Source: Nocardia ninae NBRC 108245
GTDB taxonomy: Bacteria > Actinomycetota > Actinomycetes > Mycobacteriales > Mycobacteriaceae
Length of the DNA: 64,000 bases
NCBI RefSeq assembly: GCF_007990755.1
Contig: NZ_BJXA01000003.1
Location: forward strand, 186,001 to 250,000
Reading direction: 5' to 3'
Under the pieces are notes generated by a model that was not told the DNA's origin, did no database searches, and worked only from the letters and a program-made list of their open reading frames with translations. Position 1 is the first letter of the stretch; the number at the start of each line of letters is the position of its first letter. Shown in pieces: positions 45,453 to 58,780 of the stretch. A program made the position numbers and the translations under genes.

Positions 45453-45537
45453 GTCCGGGTGGCGGAATGGCAGACGCGCTAGCTTGAGGTGCTAGTGCCC
45501 TTTAACGGGCGTGGGGGTTCAAGTCCCCCTCCGGACA
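45453..45537 (+). tRNA. tRNA-Leu (anticodon GAG)
   Basis: An 85-base class II tRNA. The acceptor GTCCGGG pairs with TCCGGAC (last pair G-U); the anticodon loop is CTTGAGG within the CTAGC/GCTAG stem; the long variable arm is TGCCC..GGGCG; the T-arm is GGGGGTTCAAGTCCCCC. CCA is not encoded. It stands at the boundary of an island and is the probable attachment target of the recombinase that follows. Confidence 0.95.
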
Positions 45538-45545
45538 CGTTTTTG

Positions 45546-45647: not shown

Positions 45648-46127
45648 GTGACTGCGAATCCGCTCGCTCCGGTGATCCCGAGCAGGGCCGTTTCGGCCCG
45701 CGCGAATACGACGCGAACGGAACCAATTCCCGCGCGGCAGACCGCGATCGGTTTGCCGCTCTCACCGATGCGTGGACGCCGCGAGGGGACCGGCGTGTAC
45801 GCGGTGCAGGCAATCGATCGAGATGGACGGGTACGCGCTCGGGTCGTGGTGGATGCCCTGGGCTGGGTACCGTCAGATCTGTTGCAGTGGAGGGTATTCA
45901 ACGGGCTCATCTGCGTGTCCCGTCCCGGTGATCGGCTCGGTATCACGCGCGCAGGGTGTCTTCGATTGCCCGCGCAGCACCGACGTGCCACTCGTCTGGT
46001 TGCTGGTGACCGTGTACTACTAGCGGCTCACCTCGGCCGCGGCGTGCTGATCATCGTTCCTCCGGGCGAACTCGATGCGATCGCAGGCGATCGTCTTGCC
46101 GACGTGGCCGGAGCTGATGAGTCATGA
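45648..46127 (+). CDS. AbrB/MazE/SpoVT-like protein next to the recombinase
   Basis: A 159-residue protein whose second half (GRVRARVVVDALGWVPSDLLQWRVFNGLICVSRPGD, then RLPAQHRRATRLVAGDRVLLAAHLGRGVLIIVPPGELD) holds two swapped-hairpin AbrB/SpoVT-like modules. The same gene is often found beside integrases in actinobacterial islands. The GTG at 45648 follows a G-rich stretch. It overlaps the recombinase gene by four bases, so it is probably a regulator or directionality factor. Confidence 0.7.
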   Translation: MTANPLAPVIPSRAVSARANTTRTEPIPARQTAIGLPLSPMRGRREGTGVYAVQAIDRDGRVRARVVVDALGWVPSDLLQWRVFNGLICVSRPGDRLGITRAGCLRLPAQHRRATRLVAGDRVLLAAHLGRGVLIIVPPGELDAIAGDRLADVAGADES

Positions 46128-47206
46128 CCGGCGACTCGGTACATGAGGACAACGTCGCTGCCGCGGTGTTGCTGTTGGGCCGTCTTGGGCTCACCCCCGA
46201 TGACTTGCGGGGTGGGGTGGTTGCTCGTGCGCCTGCGCCGACGTTTGCCGCTTACATCCCGGTCGTGTGGGCGGCGATGCCTGATGGGCGAACACGGCGG
46301 GAATACAAGTCCACGTGGGACAGGCTCCTCGGGCAGGAAGGTTGGGCCGACCGCCGGATCGACCAACCCACGGTGAGCGAGCTGAAGGCACTCGTTGAAC
46401 ACTTCAAGGCAACACGGCTGATTCGCCGATCCGATATCGGGGGGCGAGGCACTGTCAGGCAATCGATCCACGCTTTGCGCTGCCTCTACCGTCACGCAGA
46501 AGCGGACGGACTGATCGCCGCAATCGACAATCCCGCTGCCAAGCTGGAGGTACCTCGCCGGGTGCCGTCGAACCGGCGGGCTCTGCCCGAACAGCTCCTC
46601 GCCGAGATCAACCGGATTGCCGGTACCACGGGAAATGATCCCGATCTTGATGTGTTGCTGCTGCGCCTGCACACCGAGACTGCCTGTCGGCGTGGTGGTG
46701 CACTGGCGTTGCGTCCCAATGATCTCGACCCTGATCAGTGCTTGGTGCGATTGCGTGAGAAGGGTGACCTCATGCGTTGGCAACCGGTGTCACCGACTTT
46801 GATGGCTGCCCTGCAAGCCCACGCCAAGGAACGCCGGAGCAGACCCAATACGCCGCTGCTCCGGTTTCGTAACGGAAATCCCCTGACACGGCGTCGCTAC
46901 GACCATTTGTGGACACGCCTGGGAAAGTACATACCGGCCGTTGCCACTCATGGCATCAGCACGCACTGGCTGCGTCACACAACATTGACATGGGTGGAAC
47001 GGAACTTCGGAAAGGCAGTCGCCAAAACGTTCGCCGGGCACACCGACAACGGCGGCGGGGCAACAGACATCTACACACGCGCACACATTGACGAGGTCGC
47101 CGAAGCAGTCGCGACACTCACCGGTGAGCCCCACCCACTCGCCAACCGTAACGGTGATTGGACGCGGATCAGCCCGGAGTTGCTCCAGGCAACGGAGATC
47201 TATTGA
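46124..47206 (+). CDS. Tyrosine recombinase/integrase
   Basis: A 360-residue site-specific recombinase. The catalytic set is complete: Arg in ETACRRGGALAL, HxxR in STHWLRHTTL, His in AGHTDN and the nucleophile Tyr in TDIYTRAH. The N-terminal core-binding region precedes it. It starts in the preceding stop (ATGA), 590 bases after tRNA-Leu. It is the likely integrase of the island, with the tRNA 3' end as target. Confidence 0.9.
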   Translation: MTGDSVHEDNVAAAVLLLGRLGLTPDDLRGGVVARAPAPTFAAYIPVVWAAMPDGRTRREYKSTWDRLLGQEGWADRRIDQPTVSELKALVEHFKATRLIRRSDIGGRGTVRQSIHALRCLYRHAEADGLIAAIDNPAAKLEVPRRVPSNRRALPEQLLAEINRIAGTTGNDPDLDVLLLRLHTETACRRGGALALRPNDLDPDQCLVRLREKGDLMRWQPVSPTLMAALQAHAKERRSRPNTPLLRFRNGNPLTRRRYDHLWTRLGKYIPAVATHGISTHWLRHTTLTWVERNFGKAVAKTFAGHTDNGGGATDIYTRAHIDEVAEAVATLTGEPHPLANRNGDWTRISPELLQATEIY

Positions 47207-48439: not shown

Positions 48440-49357
48440 ATGCAAACGATATGCGCCCCTGAGGTGGAGGGCCCGCTGACGTTGGTAGTCGCGTGGCGGA
48501 CAAGCGCCGGTACGCATGGCCGATACGTGAAGATAACGAACGCAGTGGCAGAAGCGTTGCGCGATGACGTTGTGCGCACAGCTGCGGGTTTGATCGTCGG
48601 GGAGGGCCAAGCCTACGATCCCGACTTGCCCGACGACGAGTATCAGTTCCTCACGGCAAACCACGAAGAATTGTTGGACATAGACCTCTTGTCGACGTTG
48701 GAGCAAGGGCAGTCCTTGCCGACTTCAACGGATGACGAGCTCAGAACCCATCATCTCGCCTGTTATGGGCTAGTCCTGGGCAACGGAACCCGCCGAACGC
48801 TCTACGTCAGGCACGGTAGCCCCATTAAGTTAGCGAGAAAGACACTGCTGGCTCGCCTGGCAAGTGAATCGCTCGATCTCCTGACCACGCCCTTGTTCGC
48901 CTACGATCAGCGCGTCGACCTGATCGTCACGCCGGCGACCGTGTATGTATTGGACAAACGTAACTTCGAGATGCTGTTCAAGGATTCCGAGACTGTCTTA
49001 GCCAAGGCCGAAACGTGGGTTGAAGAGTTTTCAGAACTCTTGCCGCTATCGTCTGACAGCAAGGACTATCTCGCACAAGCACTTCGAACAAACTCAGTGC
49101 TGAGGCGGAAGGTGCATAGTGTTCTCCGGCGGGGCTACATTGCAACCCTGACACCTCAAACAATCGAAGCCAAGATGCGTGACCACGGTTTGGATCCGTC
49201 GTTTCTCATGCCAGACGGAGACGTGGTTTTCACCAGAGAAACAACACCGGATCTACTCCGCTTGCTGAACGAAGACTTGTTCGCTGGCGATTTCTCGGGC
49301 CAGCAATACGCGGCTGGAACAAAATCTCGCGTACGCGCAGTCCAACCGACGCGTTGA
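48440..49357 (+). CDS. kwaB: KwaB-like (DUF4868) protein of a Kiwa-type anti-phage system
   Basis: A 305-residue soluble protein, the usual KwaB length. The centre (RRTLYVRHGSPIKLARKT, then LFAYDQRVDLIVTPATVYVLDKRNFEMLFK) follows the DUF4868 pattern of a strand with 'FDxxIDxIIxxDxxxIxNKxxFExIF'. KwaB binds DNA and stops late replication of phage. It starts 40 bases after the kwaA stop behind AAGGGGGA. Both genes are less GC-rich than their surroundings. Confidence 0.72.
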   Translation: MQTICAPEVEGPLTLVVAWRTSAGTHGRYVKITNAVAEALRDDVVRTAAGLIVGEGQAYDPDLPDDEYQFLTANHEELLDIDLLSTLEQGQSLPTSTDDELRTHHLACYGLVLGNGTRRTLYVRHGSPIKLARKTLLARLASESLDLLTTPLFAYDQRVDLIVTPATVYVLDKRNFEMLFKDSETVLAKAETWVEEFSELLPLSSDSKDYLAQALRTNSVLRRKVHSVLRRGYIATLTPQTIEAKMRDHGLDPSFLMPDGDVVFTRETTPDLLRLLNEDLFAGDFSGQQYAAGTKSRVRAVQPTR

Positions 49358-49712
49358 CCGAACTCCACTGCGGCCCATCCCCTGGCCAGACTCCTCTGCT
49401 GACGGGCAGAGTATCCAACCTGGCAACAGACAGCTGTCCGGCACCAACGACCGACATCTTCGTCAAGGACACCGAGCTGTCATGGTCGACACTCGAGACA
49501 CTGCGGAGCACCCGCGCTATCCGGGTCGCGGAGGCCCACGGAATCACGGCGGCCTTGCTTAGCCCGGCCCCCCTCGATGGGTGTTCCGCGTCGCCATCGT
49601 CGCAGCGTGGAGGTGTCTACGCCGAGTATGCAAGACTTGCCCGGTCGTGTACATCCGCTGCTCGAGCAGCGACAGAGGTTCGTGGTCTGTCTCCGCCATG
49701 GCAGACCCCTGC

Positions 49713-49735
49713 TGACAGGATTTGAACCTGCGACC
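49713..49735 (-). pseudogene. 3' remnant of a tRNA-Pro-like gene
   Basis: On the minus strand GGTCGCAGGTTCAAATCC then TGTCA reproduces the variable loop, T-arm and first acceptor bases of actinobacterial tRNA-Pro. The bases after it (GCAGG) do not match an acceptor, and no 5' half or anticodon arm is found upstream. It may be an old attachment-site scar. Confidence 0.55.
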
Positions 49736-49943
49736 ACCTGACACCGGTTCAGGGCGTTATGTCCGGTTCCTGATGCTTCCCATGATCACCCGAAATCGCC
49801 CGCTACCAGCGGCGATTCGGAAACCAATCAGCTCTGCTCGTCGCTTCCCGCTGGTTCCCATCCATTCTGTGCTGTAGTTGTGCTGTGGGTTCGAGTGCTC
49901 CCGAGCTCTCGGGGAGTGATGCTTCGCCCCGCCGAGCGGCCTT

Positions 49944-49969
49944 CCGCGTGTCGCGGAACCGACACGCGG
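49944..49969. terminator. Terminator-like hairpin before the transposon
   Basis: CCGCGTGTCG / CGACACGCGG, ten pairs with a six-base loop, about 60 bases before the left end of the transposon. Confidence 0.5.
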
Positions 49970-50026
49970 CGCGATTTCAGGTATAGCAGACCTTCAGCAA
50001 AGTGTCCTGTGCCAACCGATCCGACG

Positions 50027-50031
50027 CATCC
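50027..50031. repeat. Left target-site duplication, CATCC
   Basis: CATCC directly before the transposon's first TGT; the same five bases follow its last ACA (54745-54749). A 5-bp duplication is what Tn7-like transposases make. Confidence 0.85.
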
Positions 50032-50037
50032 TGTCCG

Positions 50038-50107
50038 GTCTCATTTGATTTGATGCAGTCTCACTGACCTGATACATCGGCGTGTCTGTCTCATATGACT
50101 TGATACA
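50038..50107 (+). repeat. Three left-end TnsB-type binding sites
   Basis: Direct copies at 50038-50057, 50058-50076 and 50088-50107: GTCTCATTTGATTTGATGCA, GTCTCACTGACCTGATACA and GTCTCATATGACTTGATACA. The last lies 18 bases before the tnsA start, where the transposase could repress its own operon. Confidence 0.8.
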
Positions 50108-50125
50108 CGGCATAGTGTTCGGCAT

Positions 50126-50872
50126 GTGACGAGCGCGGCGCTCGATCTGGGCGTGGTTGGTCACGGCGGTTTCGAAGTCGAGTTTCGTACCGCCGACGGT
50201 GGCCGTGCCCGCGGCTCCTTGGCCATGTGCTGGAGCGATCTGCTGAACCGGGGCGGGCTGCCTGTGCGGTCATTTCCGTCCTATCGCGGGCAGCGCAACT
50301 GTTCGGGGTGGTGGTGGTTGTCGCACACCGGAACCCACGTCGGTTACGAGTCCTGGCTCGAGCGTGACAATCTGATGGTGCTCGATGCCGATCCGGATGT
50401 GGTATCGGTTGTGTCACAGCCGTTCTGGCTGCACTGGTTCGATGCTGATCGGCCGAAACGGCATGCCCCGGATTTCCTTGTTCGGCATCGGGACGGCACC
50501 GTAGCCGTTATCGATGTGCGCGCCGACGACCGTGTCGAGGTCGATGATGTGGCCGTGTTCGCTATGACAGGGCGCGCATGTGAATCGGTGGGGTGGGGCT
50601 ATCGCCGGGTTGGGACTGTTGATCCGGTGCTGGCGGCGAATCTGCGGTGGTTGTCGGGGTATCGGCATCCGCGCAACCGCTCGGACTCCGCAGCTGCGAA
50701 CTTGATGGCCGCTTTCAGGTGCGGACGTCCGTTGTTGGAGGGCTGCTGCGAGGTTGGCGACCCGATTGAGGTGTTGCCGACGCTGTTCCATCTGTTGTGG
50801 ACGGGTTCCCTGGTCGTGGACTTGCTCACCCTGCCTTTGGACGCGTGGACGTCGGTGAGGTCGGGGCCATGA
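50126..50872 (+). CDS. tnsA: TnsA-like heteromeric transposase endonuclease subunit
   Basis: A 248-residue protein of the actinobacterial TnsA-like group. The nuclease core has YESWLERDNLMVLDADPDVV, the metal-binding HAPDFLVRHRDG (Asp near 115) and VIDVRADDRV, where the usual lysine is Arg. TnsA cuts the 5' strands so that the element leaves by cut-and-paste. Start is the GTG 50126. It overlaps tnsB by four bases. Confidence 0.85.
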   Translation: MTSAALDLGVVGHGGFEVEFRTADGGRARGSLAMCWSDLLNRGGLPVRSFPSYRGQRNCSGWWWLSHTGTHVGYESWLERDNLMVLDADPDVVSVVSQPFWLHWFDADRPKRHAPDFLVRHRDGTVAVIDVRADDRVEVDDVAVFAMTGRACESVGWGYRRVGTVDPVLAANLRWLSGYRHPRNRSDSAAANLMAAFRCGRPLLEGCCEVGDPIEVLPTLFHLLWTGSLVVDLLTLPLDAWTSVRSGP

Positions 50873-52974
50873 CCGGGTTACGCCAGGGCGTGGTGCGGGT
50901 GGGCGATGAGATCGAGATCGCTGGTGTCGGGTATGTCGTTGGCGCGGTGACCGGTTCGGGTGTCGAGTTGGTCGATACCCTCGGTGGGGTCGCGTCGGTT
51001 TCGGTGTCTGCGTTGGTCAATGATCCGGGGTTGAACTTGGTGTCCGCTGTCCGCGCGCCGCTTGTCGCCGGGGATGTCTTGGCGGGAATCCCGGCGGCGG
51101 CGGTGAAGCGGGCGAAATGGTGGGAGATCCAGGTCGTGGAGATTCTCACCGGCCGCCCGCCTGGTTGTTCACCGTCGACCCCGGTCCGGCCGGAATACCG
51201 ATCCGACCGGACGCTGCGGCAGCGTGAGATGGCCAAGCTCGCCGAATTACGGGCAGCGGGTGAGGATCTCACCTTGATCACACTGCAGCGTCAGCGGCGG
51301 GCATATCAACAGGACGGCTTGTTGGGTGTTCTCGACCGCCGCTGCCGGCCGCGAAACTCGACGGTGGGTCGCGTTGATGAGCGTGTGGTCGACGCGCTGC
51401 GGCGGGTCATCGACGCCGAGACCGACCGCTCCACCGGCACGGGGACACGGTTGATGCGCCGCACCCACCAGATGCTGGAGACCCAGCATGGGGCCGATGC
51501 ACCGGCGATGCCGTCACGGGCGACTTTCTACCGGCTCGTGCGACGCTTGTCCGAGGGCAAGCACACCCTCGGGTCGGCTCGTACGCGCCGATCGTTGGCC
51601 AAACAACCCGACGGCCCGTTCTCGGCGGTCAGTGTCGCCCGACCGGGCGAGGTGATGGAGATCGACTCGACACCGCTGGACGTGAGGGTTGTCCTCGACG
51701 ACGGCACCGTTGATCGTGTGGAACTGACCGGCCTGGTGGATATTCGGACACGCACCATCGCGGCGGCCGTGCTGCGGCCGACCACGAAAGCGGTCGACGC
51801 GGCGTTGCTGTTGGCCCGGGCGTTGACACCCGAACCGATGCGGCCGGGATGGCCGGACGCACTACGGCTGTCGCGGTCGGTGCTGCCGCACCGGCGGCTG
51901 ACCGGCATCGACCAGCGGTTGGCCGATGCCGCCGCTCGTCCGGTGATCGCGCCGGAAACCATCGTCGTCGATCACGGCAAAGCGTATCTGTCGCAGACGT
52001 TCCGATCGGCGTGCTTGTCGTTGGGCATCAATCTGCAACCGGCCCACCCCGACACTCCTACCGACAAAGCGAAAGTGGAACGCACCCTGGGGTCGGTGGG
52101 CACGTTGTTCGCCCAGTATGTCGCGGGCTACGTCGGCCCCTGCGTCGAGCGGCGCGGCAAAAACGCTGAGCGCCACGCCGTCTGGTCGATGCTCGAACTG
52201 CAGCAGCTGCTCGACGAATGGATCGTCGCGGTCTGGCAGAACCGGCCGCACGACGGGCTTCGCGATCCGGTCACCCCAGCCAAGGCGCTGACCCCGAACG
52301 AAATGTATTCGGCGATGGTCGAACTCACCGGATATGTCCCGATTCCGCTGTCACCCGATGACTATATCGAGCTGTTGCCAGCGACTTGGCGGACCATCAA
52401 CTCCTACGGGATCAAGCTGAACAACCGCACCTACGACACGAAAGCGCTCAACCCGTTGCGCCGCCAACACTCCGGCGTCGAGCATCGCAACGGACGGTGG
52501 GAGGTCCATCACGACCCCTACGACGTGTCGCGGATCTGGGTCCGCAACCACCACGGCGGCGGTTGGATCACCGTCAGCTGGACCCATCTGCGCACCGCCC
52601 CAACCCCATTCGGGGAACTCGCATGGCAACACGCTCGGACCGTGTTGGCTCAACGAGGACACGACAAGGCCACCGAAGCCGAAATCGCCTCGTCTGCAGC
52701 CGATCTGCTCGACCGCGCCGAACGGGGACCATCGGGACCAACTACACCGGCACAGCAGCCGTCGGCGCGGGATCGCAGGGTCACCGGACGCACCAAGGCA
52801 ACCAATGAACCGTCCTGGCCTCGGCCCGAGGCACCACCACCGGAACCCGACGACGGCATCTGCCCCGCTCCAACGCGGACAGGCGTCGATTCCGGCGACG
52901 AACCGGCAGCGGCGAAAGTCATCCCCCTGCCCATCTTCGATGCCCGGAAAGAAGCCGAACGATGGCCGTTTTGA
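50869..52974 (+). CDS. tnsB: TnsB-like DDE transposase
   Basis: A 701-residue transposase. N-terminal DNA-binding helices are followed by an RNase-H-like core with Asp in MEIDSTPLD (about 265), Asp in VVDHGKAYLS (about 368) and Glu in KAKVERTLG (about 402), then the Mu-type C-terminal barrel. The ATG at 50869 overlaps the tnsA stop. The Pro/Ser-rich C-terminal tail may contact TnsC, whose gene overlaps by 13 bases. Confidence 0.92.
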   Translation: MTGLRQGVVRVGDEIEIAGVGYVVGAVTGSGVELVDTLGGVASVSVSALVNDPGLNLVSAVRAPLVAGDVLAGIPAAAVKRAKWWEIQVVEILTGRPPGCSPSTPVRPEYRSDRTLRQREMAKLAELRAAGEDLTLITLQRQRRAYQQDGLLGVLDRRCRPRNSTVGRVDERVVDALRRVIDAETDRSTGTGTRLMRRTHQMLETQHGADAPAMPSRATFYRLVRRLSEGKHTLGSARTRRSLAKQPDGPFSAVSVARPGEVMEIDSTPLDVRVVLDDGTVDRVELTGLVDIRTRTIAAAVLRPTTKAVDAALLLARALTPEPMRPGWPDALRLSRSVLPHRRLTGIDQRLADAAARPVIAPETIVVDHGKAYLSQTFRSACLSLGINLQPAHPDTPTDKAKVERTLGSVGTLFAQYVAGYVGPCVERRGKNAERHAVWSMLELQQLLDEWIVAVWQNRPHDGLRDPVTPAKALTPNEMYSAMVELTGYVPIPLSPDDYIELLPATWRTINSYGIKLNNRTYDTKALNPLRRQHSGVEHRNGRWEVHHDPYDVSRIWVRNHHGGGWITVSWTHLRTAPTPFGELAWQHARTVLAQRGHDKATEAEIASSAADLLDRAERGPSGPTTPAQQPSARDRRVTGRTKATNEPSWPRPEAPPPEPDDGICPAPTRTGVDSGDEPAAAKVIPLPIFDARKEAERWPF

Positions 52975-53987
52975 CCCCCGTCAGTCAGCTCGACGACCGC
53001 CGCCAACCCACCACCACGCTGGAAGGCTGGCGGCGATTCGTCCAAACCGAACCATCCCCGCAGTTCGAGCTGCTCCCCGAACGGGAATGGAAGACCCTCG
53101 ACGAGCAGAAACGAATCGAATACGACGAGGCCCGCATCGCGCATCACGCCGAACTAGTCGTGGTCACCACCTCCACGATCACCGAGATCACCAACGAAGG
53201 ACGACTGCTCACGCTGCTCAATCAGCGCGAGATCGGCGCTCGACGCGGCCTGATCATCTCGGGGCCTGCCGCCACCGGAAAGACCACCGCGATCAAGCAA
53301 CTCGGCAGATTCCACGAGCACCGCATCCAGATGCGGTTCCCAGGCACCGACCGCATCCCGGTCGTCTATGTCACCGCCCCGCCGAAAGGTTCACCCCGCA
53401 AACTGGCGATGGAATTCGCGCGCTTCCTCGGACTGCCCTCGATACGGTCCCGCCACAACGTGACCGACATCGCCGACGCAGTCTGCCAGGTCCTCATCGA
53501 TGCCCGCACCGACATCGTCGTGATCGACGAAATACATAACATTTCCCTGGCCACCAGCGCCGGTGAAGACATGTCCGACCACCTCAAATACTTCACTGAA
53601 CACCTCCCCGCGACATTCGTCTACGCAGGCATCGACGTCGAACGCTCCGGGCTGTTCACCGGGCTGCGAGGCCGCCAGATCGCCGGACGCTGCCTGGTCG
53701 TCAATACCCGCCCGTTCCCCTACAAAACCGAATGGCAGCAACTGGTCGGCGCGATGGAATCAACGCTGCGACTGCACCACCACAAGCCCGGCGCCCTGGT
53801 GAACGCGGCTGATTACCTGCACCACCGCACCGGCGGGATGATCGGAAGCCTCGGCCACCTCATTCGCGCCAGCGCAATCCGCTCCATCCTCGACGGCACC
53901 GAACAGATCACCCAAACCAGCATGGACACCGTCCGTGTCGATCACGCCGCCGAATCCATGGCCCGCCGCGGCGGAGTCACCCACTGA
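52962..53987 (+). CDS. tnsC: TnsC-like AAA+ ATPase
   Basis: A 341-residue AAA+ regulator of transposition. Walker A is GPAATGKT (about residue 101) and Walker B VVIDEIHN (about 186). It passes the target signal from TniQ to the transposase and helps provide target immunity. It overlaps tnsB by 13 bases and tniQ by one base (TGATG). Confidence 0.9.
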   Translation: MAVLTPVSQLDDRRQPTTTLEGWRRFVQTEPSPQFELLPEREWKTLDEQKRIEYDEARIAHHAELVVVTTSTITEITNEGRLLTLLNQREIGARRGLIISGPAATGKTTAIKQLGRFHEHRIQMRFPGTDRIPVVYVTAPPKGSPRKLAMEFARFLGLPSIRSRHNVTDIADAVCQVLIDARTDIVVIDEIHNISLATSAGEDMSDHLKYFTEHLPATFVYAGIDVERSGLFTGLRGRQIAGRCLVVNTRPFPYKTEWQQLVGAMESTLRLHHHKPGALVNAADYLHHRTGGMIGSLGHLIRASAIRSILDGTEQITQTSMDTVRVDHAAESMARRGGVTH

Positions 53988-54658
53988 TGACCACCGCCGA
54001 ACGATTCTGGAACCCCGGCCCCTACCAGCAGCTTCCACGCCGCATCCCACTCTTCCAGAACGAAACCATTGCTTCGTTCATCACCCGCTTGGCTGCCGCC
54101 AACCACATCGCCGTCGACGACATGCACGATCACCTCGGCGGATGGGAACCTGACCGGGACTGGATCAACCTCGAATGGACGTCCTTCGCCACCGGCTACT
54201 CCATCGAAACCCTCATCGATCGACTCCCCGGATTCACCCGCCCCGACCTCGAACGCCTGCCCATCGGCACGGCCTGCCGGCGATGCGCAGTCCGGCGCGG
54301 AGTCCTCGGGCCCGTGACGATCTATCGCGACCTGCACCTCAATGTCTGCCTGCGCCACCGACTTTGGATCGGAGGCGACAGCCATGCAACCCAGAAGGAT
54401 GTGACGTCCTTTCCCGACCTGATCCGAGCTCAGCGCCAGCACAACCTGCTCATGCATCGACACGGCGTCCAAACAACGACAGCCGCCTTCACTACTGCCT
54501 CCCAGGCACTGCAACACGGGACCGACTTCGCCACCTACCCCGACGCAGTCGCTCTGACCGGCATCCTCATCAGCGAGCGCCAGCCGCCCCCAGAACCCTC
54601 GAATCCTCGACCCAGGTCGCCGCGACGAGCCGGTGCCGACATACATCAGATCATTTGA
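53987..54658 (+). CDS. tniQ: TniQ-family target-selection protein, short form
   Basis: A 223-residue TniQ protein. It keeps the N-terminal family block (PRRIPLFQNETIASFITRLAAANHI) and the zinc-finger cysteines/histidine (CRRC...CLRH) but is shorter than most TniQ/TnsD proteins, ending in a Pro/Arg-rich tail just before the right end. A loss of C-terminal target-binding repeats would leave it with low target specificity. The stop lies 86 bases inside the element. Confidence 0.85.
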   Translation: MTTAERFWNPGPYQQLPRRIPLFQNETIASFITRLAAANHIAVDDMHDHLGGWEPDRDWINLEWTSFATGYSIETLIDRLPGFTRPDLERLPIGTACRRCAVRRGVLGPVTIYRDLHLNVCLRHRLWIGGDSHATQKDVTSFPDLIRAQRQHNLLMHRHGVQTTTAAFTTASQALQHGTDFATYPDAVALTGILISERQPPPEPSNPRPRSPRRAGADIHQII

Positions 54659-54676
54659 AACGGCTGATTCGCCGTC

Positions 54677-54744
54677 GTCTCAATGGAACTGATGCAGTGC
54701 AGCTCAGCGGCTCGCCTCCGCATCAGGTCAGCTGAGACCGGACA
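54677..54744. repeat. Right end of the transposon with two TnsB-type sites
   Basis: The terminal site reads GTCTCAGCTGACCTGATGC on the minus strand (54720-54738) just inside the ACA end, inverted relative to the left end as expected. A second site, GTCTCAATGGAACTGATGCA (54677-54696), is in the opposite (plus) direction, so the two face each other, which is not the Tn7 pattern. Confidence 0.7.
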
Positions 54745-54749
54745 CATCC
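54745..54749. repeat. Right target-site duplication, CATCC
   Basis: Identical to 50027-50031; directly after the terminal ACA. Confidence 0.85.
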
Positions 54750-54757
54750 GACCTGCG

Positions 54758-54778
54758 GTCTGCCATCGAGTTGATGCA
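54758..54778 (+). repeat. TnsB-like site outside the transposon
   Basis: GTCTGCCATCGAG followed by TTGATGCA resembles the left-end sites in the same direction but has an extra base and several changes. It lies 14 bases beyond the right boundary and may be a relic of an earlier insertion. Confidence 0.4.
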
Positions 54779-54792
54779 GTAGTGCTCGGACA

Positions 54793-55152
54793 TTTGCGCG
54801 CCGCTCGGCCGGGTAGGCAGAGTCTTTTGGCTGGTGAGGGCAGAGTTTGACGTCTAGTGGGTTGGTGCCTGAATCACCGGAGGTTCGAATAGATCACGGA
54901 AGATCAGCCTGAATACGTTCGCGAAAACGTTCGCGGGCGATAGGACGACCTTTGGCGTGTCGCTGAGCGACACGCCAAAGGTTTTGTTGTACAGCAACCT
55001 CTGGCGAACAGGCTTGCATTCGGGGCTGCACTAGGAATCGGCGGGACGCGGAGTCCTATGGTGTTCAAGCAGGTGATGGATCGCCACCTGTGCCCGAATC
55101 GTGGACGGAGTACCGGATGGGACCATGCCTCGCGCCTGGGATGGGCGCAGGG
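54793..55152. other. Gap with an orphan terminator
   Basis: About 360 bases without a supported gene. It has a direct repeat of ACGTTCGCG near 54,915-54,935 and a strong terminator (54948-54982) without an evident upstream gene, which suggests that the transposon or an older event removed the gene it served. Confidence 0.5.
54948..54982 (+). terminator. Rho-independent terminator
   Basis: 16-bp perfect stem (ACCTTTGGCGTGTCGC / GCGACACGCCAAAGGT), TGA loop and a following T-rich TTTTGTTG tract. Confidence 0.85.
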
Positions 55153-55173
55153 TTACACGATTTCGTGTAATAG
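55153..55173. promoter_or_regulatory. ArsR-type operator, first copy
   Basis: TTACACGA and TCGTGTAA flank TT in a perfect palindrome, followed by TAG, eight bases before the regulator start. The same sequence recurs at 55860-55880 with 18 of 21 positions equal. Confidence 0.75.
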
Positions 55174-55180
55174 TGAAGGC

Positions 55181-55561
55181 GTGTCAGAGGTTATCGGACT
55201 CAGCCCTCGAAGTGCTTCGCTGGCAGCGGGGAAGCCGTCGTTGGCGCAGCGGCCGCTGGTCACTGGTGAGCAGGCGGCGGCGTTGGTGTCGCTGTTCAAG
55301 ATGCTGGGCAACGATACTCGGCTGCGACTGCTGCATGTTCTGCATCGCCAGGGTGAAGTCACAGTGGGCGGGCTGGCCGAACAGGTGCAGATGCGCCCGC
55401 AGGCTGTCTCGAACCAACTACAGCGCCTGGCTGATCGCTCGATGGTCGCAGCCCGACGTGACGGCAATCGGATCTTCTACTCGATCGCCGACCCGTGCCT
55501 GCCAGCGGTCTTGGAACTGGCGTTGTGTTTGATCGAAGATTCAGCCACTGACGGCCGCTGA
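55181..55561 (+). CDS. ArsR/SmtB-family metal-responsive repressor
   Basis: A 126-residue winged-helix regulator: LFKMLGNDTRLRLLHVLHRQGEVTVGGLAEQVQMRPQAVSNQLQRLADRSMVAARRDGNRIFYSI. Cys residues in DPCLPAV and LALCLIED near the C-terminus resemble the ArsR-like repressors of Streptomyces mercury operons. The GTG at 55181 sits just after the palindrome, so autoregulation is likely. The ligand could be Hg, Cd or As(III). Confidence 0.85.
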   Translation: MSEVIGLSPRSASLAAGKPSLAQRPLVTGEQAAALVSLFKMLGNDTRLRLLHVLHRQGEVTVGGLAEQVQMRPQAVSNQLQRLADRSMVAARRDGNRIFYSIADPCLPAVLELALCLIEDSATDGR

Positions 55562-55562
55562 C

Positions 55563-55812
55563 CTCAGCAACACCTATACGCCGCAGCACCTCGTCGGCGA
55601 TCTCCACGCCGCCGATATGGATCGTCGGCGAACTCACCCCCAGCTCCGCCTGCCGGATCGTGGCTACCGCGGCCACGCTGCATGGTGAGTTCGATGCCGA
55701 TCGTTCGCATGCCGGGGTGCCCAGATCCACTGCCTCGTCGAGGGTTTCGGCGGTGGCCTCGCACCGTGTGCAGCCATCGACATCGAGATGCATAATCTCG
55801 ATCTTCGTGATC
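55563..55812 (-). pseudogene. Frameshifted thioredoxin/glutaredoxin-like metal-locus gene
   Basis: On the minus strand MHLDVDGCTRCEATAETLDEAV is the start of the short redox protein (CxxC) common in mercury and arsenic loci, and GVSSPTIHIGGVEIADEVL its cis-Pro part. Between them the reading frame shifts twice: a neighbouring frame carries the missing IGIELTMQR piece. The end is cut off next to the ArsR stop. It is convergent with the regulator gene. Confidence 0.5.
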
Positions 55813-55859
55813 CGTGCGCCTGATCTGGTGTTGACTTCTTCGACTCTTCCATTCCACTA

Positions 55860-55880
55860 TTAAACGAGTACGTGTAATAG
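55860..55880. promoter_or_regulatory. ArsR-type operator, second copy
   Basis: TTAAACGA, then GTA, then CGTGTAATAG. It matches the site before the ArsR gene at 18 of 21 positions and lies 25 bases before the CadI-rhodanese gene, so that gene is probably under the same repressor. Confidence 0.7.
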
Positions 55881-55905
55881 TTGTCTACGGTTTCGAGGAA
55901 GTCTC

Positions 55906-56643
55906 ATGTCGCGTTTTCAGTTGTCGCTCAACGTCTCCGACGTCGAGGCCGCCGTCACCTTCTACACCGAGCTCCTCGGGGTCGAGCCCGCCAAACATCG
56001 CGACGGTTACGCGAATTTCGTGGTGTCCGATCCGCCGCTGAAGCTGGTCCTCATTGAAGGGGAAGGCGCACCCGCCACCATCAACCACGTCGGCATCGAG
56101 GTCGCCGACAGCGAAGCGGTTGTGCGCCAAGCCCACCGGCTCGCCGAGGCGGGCCTGCACACCCGCGTCGACCCCACCCACACCTGCTGTTATGCCACCC
56201 AGGACAAAGTGTGGGTCGCCGACCCCGATGGCACCCCATGGGAGGTCTACAACGTCATCGGCGACACCGGCTACTTCGGTGCCGCCGGTAGCGACCGCGC
56301 AGACCTCGCACCGGTCGTCCCGATCGAGCGAGACGAACTCATAGCCAAGATGGGGGCGGGCACGGTCGTGCTGATCGATGCCCAAGGGCCGGGCTGGTAC
56401 GACAAGGGCCACCTGCCTGGCGCGCATGCCGTCGACTGGGACGACATCACCGCCACCGCCACCGCGCACCTGCCCAGCCGCGACACCGAAATCGTTGTCT
56501 ACTGCTGGAATTCGACATGCAGCGGATCAGAAACCGTCGCCGCCGAGCTGACCCGCCTGGGCTACCGCAACGTGCGCCGATACATCGAGGGCAAACAGGA
56601 CTGGCAAGCCCACGGGCAGCCACTCGCCGTCACGGCCCGCTGA
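55906..56643 (+). CDS. CadI/ArsI-like VOC protein fused to a rhodanese domain
   Basis: A 245-residue fusion. Residues 1-125 follow the mycobacterial CadI/ArsI pattern: FQLSLNVSDVEAAVTFYTELLGVEPAKHRDGYANF, INHVGIEV and the vicinal cysteines in THTCCYATQDKVWVADPDGTPWEVY. ArsI-type proteins cleave C-As bonds; CadI is Cd-induced. Residues about 140-245 are a rhodanese domain with a YCWNSTCSGS loop whose Cys would carry persulfide. The fusion suggests sulfur chemistry joined to metal or organoarsenical handling. It is expressed from the second ArsR-type operator. Confidence 0.8.
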   Translation: MSRFQLSLNVSDVEAAVTFYTELLGVEPAKHRDGYANFVVSDPPLKLVLIEGEGAPATINHVGIEVADSEAVVRQAHRLAEAGLHTRVDPTHTCCYATQDKVWVADPDGTPWEVYNVIGDTGYFGAAGSDRADLAPVVPIERDELIAKMGAGTVVLIDAQGPGWYDKGHLPGAHAVDWDDITATATAHLPSRDTEIVVYCWNSTCSGSETVAAELTRLGYRNVRRYIEGKQDWQAHGQPLAVTAR

Positions 56644-56720
56644 CCTACCGGTGCAAGTCCTGGCTATCGTCGCGGATCGGGCGACAGTGGAGGTAGACCG
56701 TTCGAAGAGATGAGTCCGCC

Positions 56721-57263
56721 ATGGCCGAGATCGATCGATCCCCGATCCACGCCGAACTGGAACGAGTCCGCGCCGACTTGCACCGGCTCCTCGACTCCGC
56801 GATGCCAGCGGACTTCGACCGGGTCTCTGACGGTACGCGCTGGACCAACGAGCAATTGTTGTTCCACATGGTGTTCGGCTACATGGTGGTCCAGCGCCTG
56901 CTGATCCTGATGCGGCTGTTCGATCGGCTACCACCCAGGATCAGCCGGGGCTATGCCCGGCTCCTCGACGCCGGAACCCGCCCTTTCCACTGGGTCAACT
57001 ATCACGGATCGTGCGCGGCAGGCCGGGTCTACAACAGAGGCCGTATGGGCGCCAAGCTCGACCGTGTCATCGCCAGCCTGCACCGCCGCCTCGACAGTGC
57101 ATCCGAGCGGGACATGGCCCGCGGCATGTACTTCCCCACCCGGTGGGACCCCTTCTTCACCGAGTACATGACCCTGACAGACCTATTCCACTACCCGGCA
57201 CAACATTACGACTTCCACCGCAACCAACTCACCATCACCGGGCGCACAGGCCGCCAACCCTGA
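56721..57263 (+). CDS. DinB-like (YfiT/bacillithiol-transferase fold) protein
   Basis: A 180-residue four-helix protein of the DinB superfamily: WTNEQLLFHMVFGYMVVQRLL and the C-terminal FTEYMTLTDLFHYPAQHYDFHRNQL supply the metal-binding histidines. Related proteins are mycothiol- or bacillithiol-dependent transferases or isomerases. It follows the CadI-rhodanese gene by 77 bases and may be in the same transcript, which would fit a thiol-based detoxification role. Confidence 0.7.
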   Translation: MAEIDRSPIHAELERVRADLHRLLDSAMPADFDRVSDGTRWTNEQLLFHMVFGYMVVQRLLILMRLFDRLPPRISRGYARLLDAGTRPFHWVNYHGSCAAGRVYNRGRMGAKLDRVIASLHRRLDSASERDMARGMYFPTRWDPFFTEYMTLTDLFHYPAQHYDFHRNQLTITGRTGRQP

Positions 57264-57386
57264 CCGCTCGCCCGGCGTGGCTACTCCTCATCCAGCGAGG
57301 CGGAACCACCGGGTCCGGATTAAGAAGACTCGACAATCCGAGGATCAGCGGCCGACTGATCACCGGCTCATCGAGCTCGACTGTGG

Positions 57387-58382
57387 TCAGTCGCGAAGCA
57401 GGCTTGCGAAGATGCGGCTGCCCAACTCGTGTGCCTCGGCAAGATCCATCACCGCACCACCGATCTCGGGATGGCCCGCAGCCCAGGCGTGGGCGCCGGA
57501 CCGGTCGGTGAAGAAGTTCAGATAGCTACAGCACGTGTCCGCCGAGGGACCTCGAGAGGCTGTTCCGCCGACGAACACCACCGTGGTGACCGGGTGTACG
57601 AGGAGATGCTCGGCCTCGATCGAGACCGTGATCGGCGCGCCGGTGACCGGGTCCGCGGAGGTGATGTACACATCGGTGTCGAGCATGGCGGCCAGGCCGA
57701 GGGCATCGATCGCACACATGGTGTAAACGGTTGCCCCGCCTGCGATCTGGGCTCGATGCGGGGTCGGTGCGGTCGAGAACGGATAGGCCGAGACGATTGC
57801 CGACCCCTCCACATCCAGGCGGAGGACATCGCCGTCATGCAGACGCCGCAGCACCTCGGCGACCGAAGCGCTATGCCCGGTAAGCACTTCGGTGAGCGCA
57901 CCCAGGGTCGGCGGGACACCGTGCGCAACAAAACTGCGCAGGATCGCCTGATGCACTGCCTTTTCTGCCGGATCGGCCGGTCGGGCAGCACCGCGCCACG
58001 TGTCCAGGGTATCGACCGGCCCTCGATCCGCGGCTGAGGAGCAACACGGCGTGGGCTGGTCGCTGTCGCACGATCCGGCGGCCACTGGCAGGCTCAACGC
58101 TTCGCGCAGCGCAGCGACCGACGGTGCACCATCGAGCCTGCCGTCCTCGTGCGAGTACAGCCGGCACGACAGGCTCGGCAACTGACCGGTGGTCGGGAAG
58201 GGGTCGTGTCCGTCGATGAGCAATGTCGGTGATCCCGTCATTCCCGCTGCGGCGGCTTGGTCCGAGTCGTCGATGACACGGTGGGCGATCTGGACCGGTT
58301 CACCGGCGCTGGCTTGGCGGATGCGGTCTTCGAGGACCGCCACGTTCGGGCAGTCCGGCACCTGAAGGATCTCCAGTCTCAT
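57387..58382 (-). CDS. merB: Organomercurial lyase MerB with N-terminal thioredoxin-like domain
   Basis: A 331-residue enzyme, about 120 residues longer than ordinary MerB. The first 100 residues form a thioredoxin-like domain with one Cys (VPDCPN) and a cis-Pro SPTLLIDG. The lyase domain keeps the catalytic set: Cys and Asp in YTMCAIDALG, and the second Cys in DTCCSYLNFFT, used to split C-Hg bonds. It starts in the merR stop codon (TGATG). No merA reductase is in the window, so the Hg(II) released must be reduced or bound elsewhere. Confidence 0.9.
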   Translation of the reverse strand: MRLEILQVPDCPNVAVLEDRIRQASAGEPVQIAHRVIDDSDQAAAAGMTGSPTLLIDGHDPFPTTGQLPSLSCRLYSHEDGRLDGAPSVAALREALSLPVAAGSCDSDQPTPCCSSAADRGPVDTLDTWRGAARPADPAEKAVHQAILRSFVAHGVPPTLGALTEVLTGHSASVAEVLRRLHDGDVLRLDVEGSAIVSAYPFSTAPTPHRAQIAGGATVYTMCAIDALGLAAMLDTDVYITSADPVTGAPITVSIEAEHLLVHPVTTVVFVGGTASRGPSADTCCSYLNFFTDRSGAHAWAAGHPEIGGAVMDLAEAHELGSRIFASLLRD

Positions 58383-58780
58383 CAGCATTCTTCCTTGTGT
58401 AGTGAGGTCAGTAGCGGACACGATCGGCGCGAGCGCGGCAGCTCGCAGGTCGCGACGAGCTCGGTCAGTGACTGCTGCATGCGTTGCAGATCAGCGATCC
58501 GCTGGGCCAGCTGCCCGATCCGCGCCTGGGCTAGTGCGCGGGCGGTGTCGCAGTCGGCGGGGCCGCCGTCGGCCAAATGCAGCAACTCCTCGATCTCGTC
58601 GAGGCTGAACCCCAGCTCTTGAGCGCGTTTCACGAACCGCACCGTCTCGACCGCCTCGTCGGGATAGCTGCGGTAGCCACCCGCAGACCGCGGGGGTCGC
58701 GCGAGCAGGCCGCGACGCTCGTAGTAGCGCAACGTCTGCGCGCTCACTCCCGCACGCGCCGCCAGTTCACCGGTCCGCAT
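58382..58780 (-). CDS. merR: MerR-family mercury-responsive regulator
   Basis: A 132-residue MerR protein: helix-turn-helix (MRTGELAARAGVSAQTLRYYERRGLL), a dimer helix, and the three Hg(II) ligands in the expected places, one Cys in PADCDTARAL and two nine residues apart in ATCELPRSRRSCPLL. It shares a transcript with merB downstream. The promoter-operator just upstream has MerR-type geometry. Confidence 0.9.
   Translation of the reverse strand: MRTGELAARAGVSAQTLRYYERRGLLARPPRSAGGYRSYPDEAVETVRFVKRAQELGFSLDEIEELLHLADGGPADCDTARALAQARIGQLAQRIADLQRMQQSLTELVATCELPRSRRSCPLLTSLHKEEC

Follow-up and report, generated by a model that had tools for sequence, protein, structure and literature searches.

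A cargo-free Tn7-like transposon in Nocardia ninae and the layout of its ends

A four-gene element between perfect ends

The DNA considered here is a 64,000-nt stretch of the Nocardia ninae NBRC 108245 genome (contig NZ_BJXA01000003.1, positions 186,001 to 250,000), hereafter the window, whose own numbering is used for all coordinates. At positions 50032-54744 it holds a Tn7-like transposon of 4,713 bp, with a GC content of 0.644 compared with 0.657 for the window as a whole. Four genes are flanked by TnsB-type sites, terminal inverted repeats and a 5-bp target duplication, as listed here (distances with a plus sign are counted from the nearer terminus; aa, amino acids):

50027..50031, no strand: left CATCC target duplication (read from the sequence)
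50032..50043, plus strand: terminal inverted repeat of the tnsA-side (left) end, TGTCCGGTCTCA (exact-match search)
50038..50057, plus strand: tnsA-side TnsB-type site 1 (+6), direct (site scan, end profile)
50058..50076, plus strand: tnsA-side TnsB-type site 2 (+26), direct, shorter by one base (identified by eye; the scan gave no score)
50088..50107, plus strand: tnsA-side TnsB-type site 3 (+56), direct (site scan, end profile)
50126..50872, plus strand: tnsA, GTG start, 248 aa, PD..DxR motif (NF033179 match)
50869..52974, plus strand: tnsB, 701 aa, DDE transposase, ATG start chosen in this analysis (Mu-transpos_C match)
52962..53987, plus strand: tnsC/TniB, AAA ATPase, 341 aa (TniB match)
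53987..54658, plus strand: tniQ, 223 aa, C-terminal half short (TniQ match under the Pfam cut-off)
54642..54661, minus strand: tniQ-side TnsB-type site 3 (+83), oriented as site 1 (site scan)
54677..54697, plus strand: tniQ-side TnsB-type site 2 (+47), inverted (site scan)
54697..54706, minus strand: box TGAGCTGCAC between tniQ-side sites 1 and 2 (family form TGACCTGCGG)
54719..54738, minus strand: tniQ-side TnsB-type site 1 (+6) (site scan, end profile)
54733..54744, minus strand: terminal inverted repeat of the tniQ-side (right) end (exact-match search)
54745..54749, no strand: right CATCC target duplication (read from the sequence)

The inverted repeat TGTCCGGTCTCA is exact at both ends (12 of 12 bases), its two copies being the sole exact matches in the window (at up to 2 mismatches there are 11 matches, with 6.6 expected), and exact copies of CATCC abut both termini. 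An end profile of 27 bases, trained on the two ends of each of 23 relatives and not on the window element, scored the element's own ends at 33.7 (50032) and 27.8 (54718); when a 174,638-bp part of the contig was block-shuffled six times, no score exceeded 19.3. The perfect termini, the perfect duplication and the several TnsB-type sites that the site scan found at each end agree with a first-pass annotation of this DNA, and the boundaries it gave are exact and intact, except that its interval, 50027-54749, takes in both duplications. Inverted termini, a 5-bp duplication and several TnsB-type sites per end are all expected of a Tn7-like transposon.

The four open reading frames overlap head to tail in the order tnsA-tnsB-tnsC-tniQ: the ATG of tnsB (50869) sits on the tnsA stop, tnsB and tnsC overlap by 13 bases, and tniQ starts on the final base of the tnsC stop. 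TnsA belongs to the actinobacterial family NF033179 (1e-84, 283 bits, cut-off 110), and TnsC matches TniB PF05621 (3e-17, 63.1 bits, cut-off 22.4). TnsB is identified as a DDE transposase by a Mu-transpos_C match above cut-off (1.1e-7); its residues D266, D368 and E404 are invariant in all 24 elements of the non-redundant set described below, and its best solved relative is TnsB of Tn6677 (2.7e-9). The protein's own match to Pfam TniQ, in the case of TniQ, lies under the cut-off (0.0022), and its assignment as a TniQ/TnsD selector runs via family members and an invariant zinc motif: 17 of the 20 aligned family TniQ proteins match Pfam TniQ at 0.01 or better (best 1.9e-13), the family profile matches ShTniQ at 0.0035, and the CxxC..CxxH motif, with its four zinc ligands, is invariant in 20 of 20.

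Two other kinds of transposon were considered and rejected. Transposons of the Tn5053/Tn402 kind lack tnsA and use a resolvase together with a res site; the window element shares with them TniB- and TniQ-type helpers and a compact size but has tnsA, and none of the four genes that fill 50126-54658 matches a resolvase. Since the element encodes no resolvase, an inactive TnsA would leave cointegrates. As for CRISPR-associated transposons, which carry genes for Cas effectors, only tnsA, tnsB, tnsC and tniQ were found in 50032-54744.

Boundaries, duplication, gene set, DDE triad, TnsB-type sites and insertion in the end of an older element (below) are all seen at the level of sequence. With a probability of roughly 0.7, we read the locus as a self-contained, cargo-free actinobacterial Tn7-like transposon that amounts to an insertion sequence driven by a Tn7 apparatus of four genes. 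In this apparatus TnsB would pair the ends and cut and join the 3' strands, TnsA would free the element from its donor by cutting the 5' strands, and the choice of target would fall to TnsC together with TniQ.

Relatives, copy number and mobility

The element belongs to the actinobacterial Tn7-like transposons (TnsA family NF033179), a known kind, of which it is a newly found member, in Nocardia. It shares with them the type of TnsA, the gene order, TGTCC termini, 5-bp duplications, several TnsB-type sites and the plan of the ends described below, and differs in having no cargo. Judging only from pairwise identities, its group is probably the Actinobacteria-dominated TnsB clade 2 of PMC8649781; according to the available portion of that paper, no member of this clade had been characterised experimentally as of 2021. 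At 4.7 kb, with each part placed to the base, the window element is a convenient first member for experiments. The main text of PMC10293859 does not mention "actino", and PMC6794481 was rejected as a related system, its accessible text giving an IS481-family transposase.

For comparison, 32 elements were delimited and 8 were dropped (seven with at least 90% longest-frame identity to a kept element, and L081 for a doubtful end), leaving 24 non-redundant elements; L026 and L056, both kept, and L078 have no duplication, and L019 and the element on contig C160 end at contig edges. The nearest relative of the window element is that of N. uniformis (L078:7232-11980; L078/L082), which is 4,749 bp long and shares the layout, the cargo-free state and the palindrome arms in the tnsA-side flank, but differs in lacking a duplication, in its protein sequences (TnsB 74% and TniQ 53% identical) and in a TniQ that is 30 residues longer in one segment. 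Another member is Tn7706 of Rhodococcus erythropolis, which, as far as the accessible part of PMC12915292 describes it, shares tnsA, tnsB, tniQ and tniB and differs in having 19 genes, in being multicopy and in its TnsB (~51% identical). Since the length of the element at L142:16988-36364 equals the length published for Tn7706 in that part (19,377 bp), we take the two to be the same.

As first described, the window element carries only four transposition genes between its ends, and this state recurs in the family. At most 800 bp, room for one short tniQ, follow tnsC in 5 of the 24 elements, of which four are from Nocardia (the window element, L078, L017 and L019) and one is from Streptomyces (L066); L017 (4,682 bp), L019 (4,697 bp) and L066 (4,507 bp) have the layout of the window element, and four of the six Nocardia elements in the set are cargo-free. 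Among Tn7-like transposons at large, 96% of 6,549 carry cargo, according to the abstract of PMC8649781. The first-pass annotation had taken the lack of cargo and the intact duplication as signs of a recent insertion and of an active element, and neither conclusion found support. Because the absence of cargo recurs, in L078 even without a duplication, it is uninformative on age, and an intact duplication only tells that the flanks have stayed unrearranged after insertion; activity, in turn, is not supported by a single copy with a nearest relative 75% identical, an empty site that was not found and a short tniQ.

Several observations weigh against a self-contained mobile element. A search of the draft genome for further copies of its ends, with up to 3 mismatches allowed, found none, and the best match outside its own genome in 150 genomes of the genus (two best candidates per genome scored) has 75% identity over most of the element. 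When the flanks were searched separately, none of the matches listed in these 150 genomes (again with the two best candidates per genome scored) spans the junction of an empty site, and among the fetched loci the joined 202-base empty site matched the right flank only. The empty site in a relative, whose absence had been named beforehand as refuting the insertion, was thus not found. This absence says little for or against the insertion, since the DNA on both sides is strain-specific or a remnant of another transposon. Under closer inspection, TniQ has 59 residues between its CxxC..CxxH and YPD motifs, 30 fewer than the 89 of L078, so that the gene set described at first as a complete tnsABC-tniQ stands as four open, overlapping genes, of which tniQ is shortened. 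Finally, TnsA reads D-V-R or D-C-R in all 24 members compared, where a solved TnsA, aligned by the family profile (a weak match, E 0.084), reads E-Y-K (ExK).

These features could be those of a decayed element with good boundaries, which a short TniQ or an unusual TnsA has left immobile or dependent on the proteins of another element, such as that on contig C160. We consider this unlikely. It would fit the 30 missing residues of TniQ, the single copy without a close relative found and the presence of another family member in the same genome; on the other hand, all four frames are open, the DDE triad is intact, and both ends and the duplication are perfect. Family members differ in the length of the TniQ segment (that of the window element is 18-19 residues shorter than in L005, L008, L013, L014 and L012), the DxR of TnsA is family-wide and includes elements that have spread, and the terminal sites of the C160 element differ in sequence. 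At 223 aa, the TniQ of the window element is the shortest among 26 recognisably similar TniQ proteins, although L017 has a TniQ-like protein of different build with 220 aa. Movement within the family is seen in the 10-kb elements L008, L009 and L010, which lie in three species with differing duplications and are 99% alike in the longest frame; Tn7706, as noted, is multicopy in Rhodococcus (PMC12915292, same portion). In a search of 72,556 plasmids, no single place covered 80% of the window element.

The second family member of the N. ninae genome (L095:1-5323, contig C160) spans 5,322 bp between perfect 12-bp ends, which coincide with the contig edges and thereby suggest a collapsed repeat present in several copies; by eye, a TniQ-like and a kinase-like gene follow its tnsC. 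The same genome has a weak TnsA-family match at L137:8720-9085 (contig C117; 42.9 bits, cut-off 110). Three tnsA-tnsB-tnsC-tniQ sets are adjacent within 15 kb on a Rhodococcus plasmid (L138:3747-18658). In three of ten fetched plasmid regions (L139, Pseudonocardia; L143, Nocardia; L144, Mycobacterium avium), tnsA lies 216-349 bp past the start of a divergent mobF relaxase gene, possibly an oriT-side insertion hot spot.

The tniQ-side end and an older end beside the element

The TnsB-type sites of the tnsA-side end are all direct and lie near +6, +26 and +57. At the tniQ-side end, site 2 is inverted, and this arrangement is shared within the group. With each element's own terminal sites as the query, the best inverted match fell at +45 to +48 of the tniQ-side end in 17 of the 24 non-redundant elements, and in none of the 24 at the other end; in the window element the inverted site matches in 17 of 21 bases, which was equalled in 0 of 200 shuffles. 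Between sites 1 and 2 lies the box TGACCTGCGG, whose best match is at +36 to +40 in 21 of 24 elements (it is absent from the expected place in L031, L050 and L055), none of the 24 having it there at the other end; the consensus was derived from the same elements in which it was counted. Twelve plasmid elements were also tried, of which seven had no ends that could be delimited and one (L141) was doubtful, with the box at +38 (10/10) and the inverted site off-place at +52. In each of the remaining four, held out from the set above (L138a, L140, L142 and L146), the best inverted match falls at +47, and the box, with 7-10 of 10 bases, at +38.

The fit is not uniform, and some of the data count against a fixed plan. 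The inverted site lies elsewhere than +45 to +48 in seven of the 24 elements (C160, L022, L047, L050, L055, L056 and L065), and in L017, L031 and L039 it is well placed but with high shuffle fractions (0.065, 0.135 and 0.235). Two of the 21 box matches reach only 6/10 (C160 and L047), and the inverted matches of the held-out elements, including the presumed Tn7706 in L142, reach only 10-12 of 21 bases, so that they fit by position. Inverted site and box might also be regulatory DNA, for instance an operator or terminator after tniQ, and no transposition sites at all. In the window element they do follow directly on tniQ, with sites 2 and 3 facing each other as an inverted repeat; we nevertheless think this improbable, given that their position is fixed to the terminus even where much cargo follows tniQ, as in the 19,377 bp of L142. 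Furthermore, the inverted site is closer to the element's own terminal sites than to those of other elements (15.4 versus 11.5 of 21), a difference biased upward because those 17 elements were chosen by their own match.

We found no description of an inverted TnsB site in the actinobacterial Tn7-like group in the literature searched; the legend of Fig. 1B in PMC8649781, the part of that figure available, has the sites of one end drawn as same-direction arrows, and asymmetric ends in general can differ in site orientation, according to an excerpt of PMC13370975. A parallel is the type I-F CRISPR-associated transposon VchCAST/Tn6677, which, in the accessible passages of PMC10201428 and PMC13370975, shares Tn7-type ends and has, between the first two sites of its left end, a conserved box that is not a TnsB site, there a site for integration host factor (IHF) that stimulates transposition; it differs in its CRISPR parts and in the sequence, and likely the protein, of the box. 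By analogy with IHF in VchCAST, a host factor may act on the box of the window element. For the elements sharing this plan, we propose that the tniQ-side end probably assembles through a head-to-head pair of TnsB on site 1 and inverted site 2, the box between them being occupied either by a host protein that bends DNA or by a conserved transposase surface. The plan could show how such elements are assembled for moving, and it opens direct tests of site 2, the box and host factors.

A third end-like sequence adjoins the element on its left:

50003..50029, plus strand: relic end of an older, different Tn7-like element (TGTCCTGTGCCAACCGATCCGACGCAT; end profile)

It starts 29 bp outside the left end of the element, in the same orientation as that end, and its profile score of 25.2 is the third-highest in the window, the next being 14.0 (16.5 in the 174,638 bp of contig). 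The profile match covers 50003-50029 and the element begins at 50032, so the insertion took place just behind the first TnsB-type site of the older end. As its sequence indicates, this is the leftover end of an older, different Tn7-like element; the earlier account of the locus, correct as to the type of element, had missed it together with the inverted site and the palindrome discussed below. After the right-hand duplication follows GACCTGCGG, nine bases of the tniQ-side box, which suggests that the relic was a tniQ-side end. That the sequence at 50003 is a chance match we regard as very improbable. Neither a search of the genome allowing up to 3 mismatches nor a profile scan of C3:126001-300638 found its partner, and GACCTGCGG lies ~9 bp nearer the terminus than the box does in other elements, both of which would suit chance; yet its score exceeds that of all shuffles (up to 19.3), and it directly abuts the element.

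The TnsB-type site of the relic (GTGCCAACCGATCCGACGCA) differs from the element's own sites, so TnsB-dependent immunity should not protect it, which would fit repeated use of one insertion hot spot. A further end-like match scoring at least 14 lies within 300 bp outside 4 of the 28 relatives' elements checked (L040, 27.1; L046, 17.6; L065, 17.6; L067, 14.3). The interest of the locus lies in this adjoining relic end and in an end plan common to the relatives, the latter of which a single window could not reveal.

Flanking palindromes and the surroundings of the element

The element is flanked by two palindromes that raise the question of its target:

49944..49969, no strand: palindrome, arms of 10 bp, separated by 33 bp from the relic end and by 62 bp from the element
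54954..54976, no strand: second palindrome, sharing the core arms of the first, ~210 bp beyond the right end of the element

The pattern GCGTGTCG-N(3-8)-CGACACGC, chosen after inspection of the two flanks, has just these two copies in the 9.7-Mb genome, one to the left (49946-49967) and one to the right (54955-54975) of the element. N. uniformis has one copy, and 41 bp separate it from the tnsA-side terminus of L078. Among the 30 other palindrome loci returned from the genus search, to which the end scan was confined, one (G023, single copy; L178:9676-9796) has a Tn7-type end at 74 bp, with a score of 23.7; there are no tns genes in 19.5 kb at this locus. As a side observation, the genes behind this lone end look by eye like defence genes. 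For a wider count, 81 loci were reduced to 46 by removing 31 without an end scoring 13, three with short flanks and one duplicate. A perfect stem of at least 8 within 110 bp was present in 11 of the 46 tnsA-side flanks, versus 1.2 expected; since seven of the 11 are one Streptomyces site, this becomes 5 of 40 by site. In a set of 29 elements, such stems occur in 7 tnsA-side flanks versus 1 tniQ-side flank. The gap between stem and end is 33-43 bp in 7 of the 11; it is 33 bp for the relic end and 61 bp in L027.

Speaking against a general role in targeting, 35 of the 46 tnsA-side flanks have no stem of at least 8, and the window element, at 62 bp, falls outside the common 33-43 bp. No such stem was found in the tnsA-side flank of L017, itself a minimal Nocardia element. 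The palindrome could instead be an ordinary terminator or operator of hot-spot DNA that the transposon does not read, a possibility to which we grant nearly an even chance. T-rich DNA follows the right-hand copy, within a block conserved in other Nocardia without the element; 62 of 148 genomes of the genus have the palindrome (74 sites, versus 40 for a reversed control); and the Streptomyces site that accounts for seven of the 11 long stems lies by a helix-turn-helix-like regulator gene. Evidence against an ordinary palindrome comes from identical 8-bp arms beside two diverged elements in genomes otherwise without it, from the third Tn7-type end near the single G023 copy, and from the count of stems on the tnsA side (7/29 versus 1/29).

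We therefore treat the palindrome as a candidate target site, less certain than the end plan: for the window element and L078 the chances of palindrome targeting are about even, and as a rule it is unproven. This TniQ lineage may recognise the palindrome that lies beside the tnsA end. Taken together, our tentative proposal, held at somewhat short of even odds in its entirety, is that the tniQ-side end of the group follows an undescribed plan (site 1, an invariant box contacted by a host factor or by a conserved transposase surface, inverted site 2 and direct site 3 at fixed spacing, with head-to-head TnsB synapsis) and that a short palindrome, ~33-62 bp away from the tnsA end, serves as the target of the Nocardia branch. 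If the palindrome is indeed the target, such elements would be compact insertion systems with a readable address. A tRNA gene as the target was rejected, an ARAGORN scan of 57 flank sequences, each at most 1 kb long, having turned up no such gene, and the sequence preference of the duplication is mild (of 26, 15 have G as the fourth base and 13 have C as the fifth).

The Streptomyces site just mentioned comprises L023, L025, L026, L027, L032, L033 and L062, whose elements are inserted beside one shared palindrome, TTGCAAGC-N-GCTTGCAA, upstream of a gene that by eye resembles a helix-turn-helix regulator. In the window, Rfam gave no match at E 0.1 in 49400-55300. On the minus strand, 49711-49754 reads by eye as the 3' part of a tRNA gene, is matched widely in the genus and is possibly an attachment remnant. 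Near the element lies a KwaB-like gene (48440-49357; PF16162, 5.8e-11), downstream of a phage-type integrase gene (46124-47206) and of tRNA-Leu (45453-45538). On the right, the intergenic block 54765-54980, compared with L116, L117, L118, L119 and L121, is 70-79% identical to homologues in G104, G116 (two places), G077 and G069 and ends in the second palindrome; beyond it, 55058-58780 holds genes for an ArsR/MarR-like regulator, a glyoxalase-rhodanese fusion, DinB, the alkylmercury lyase MerB and a MerR regulator.

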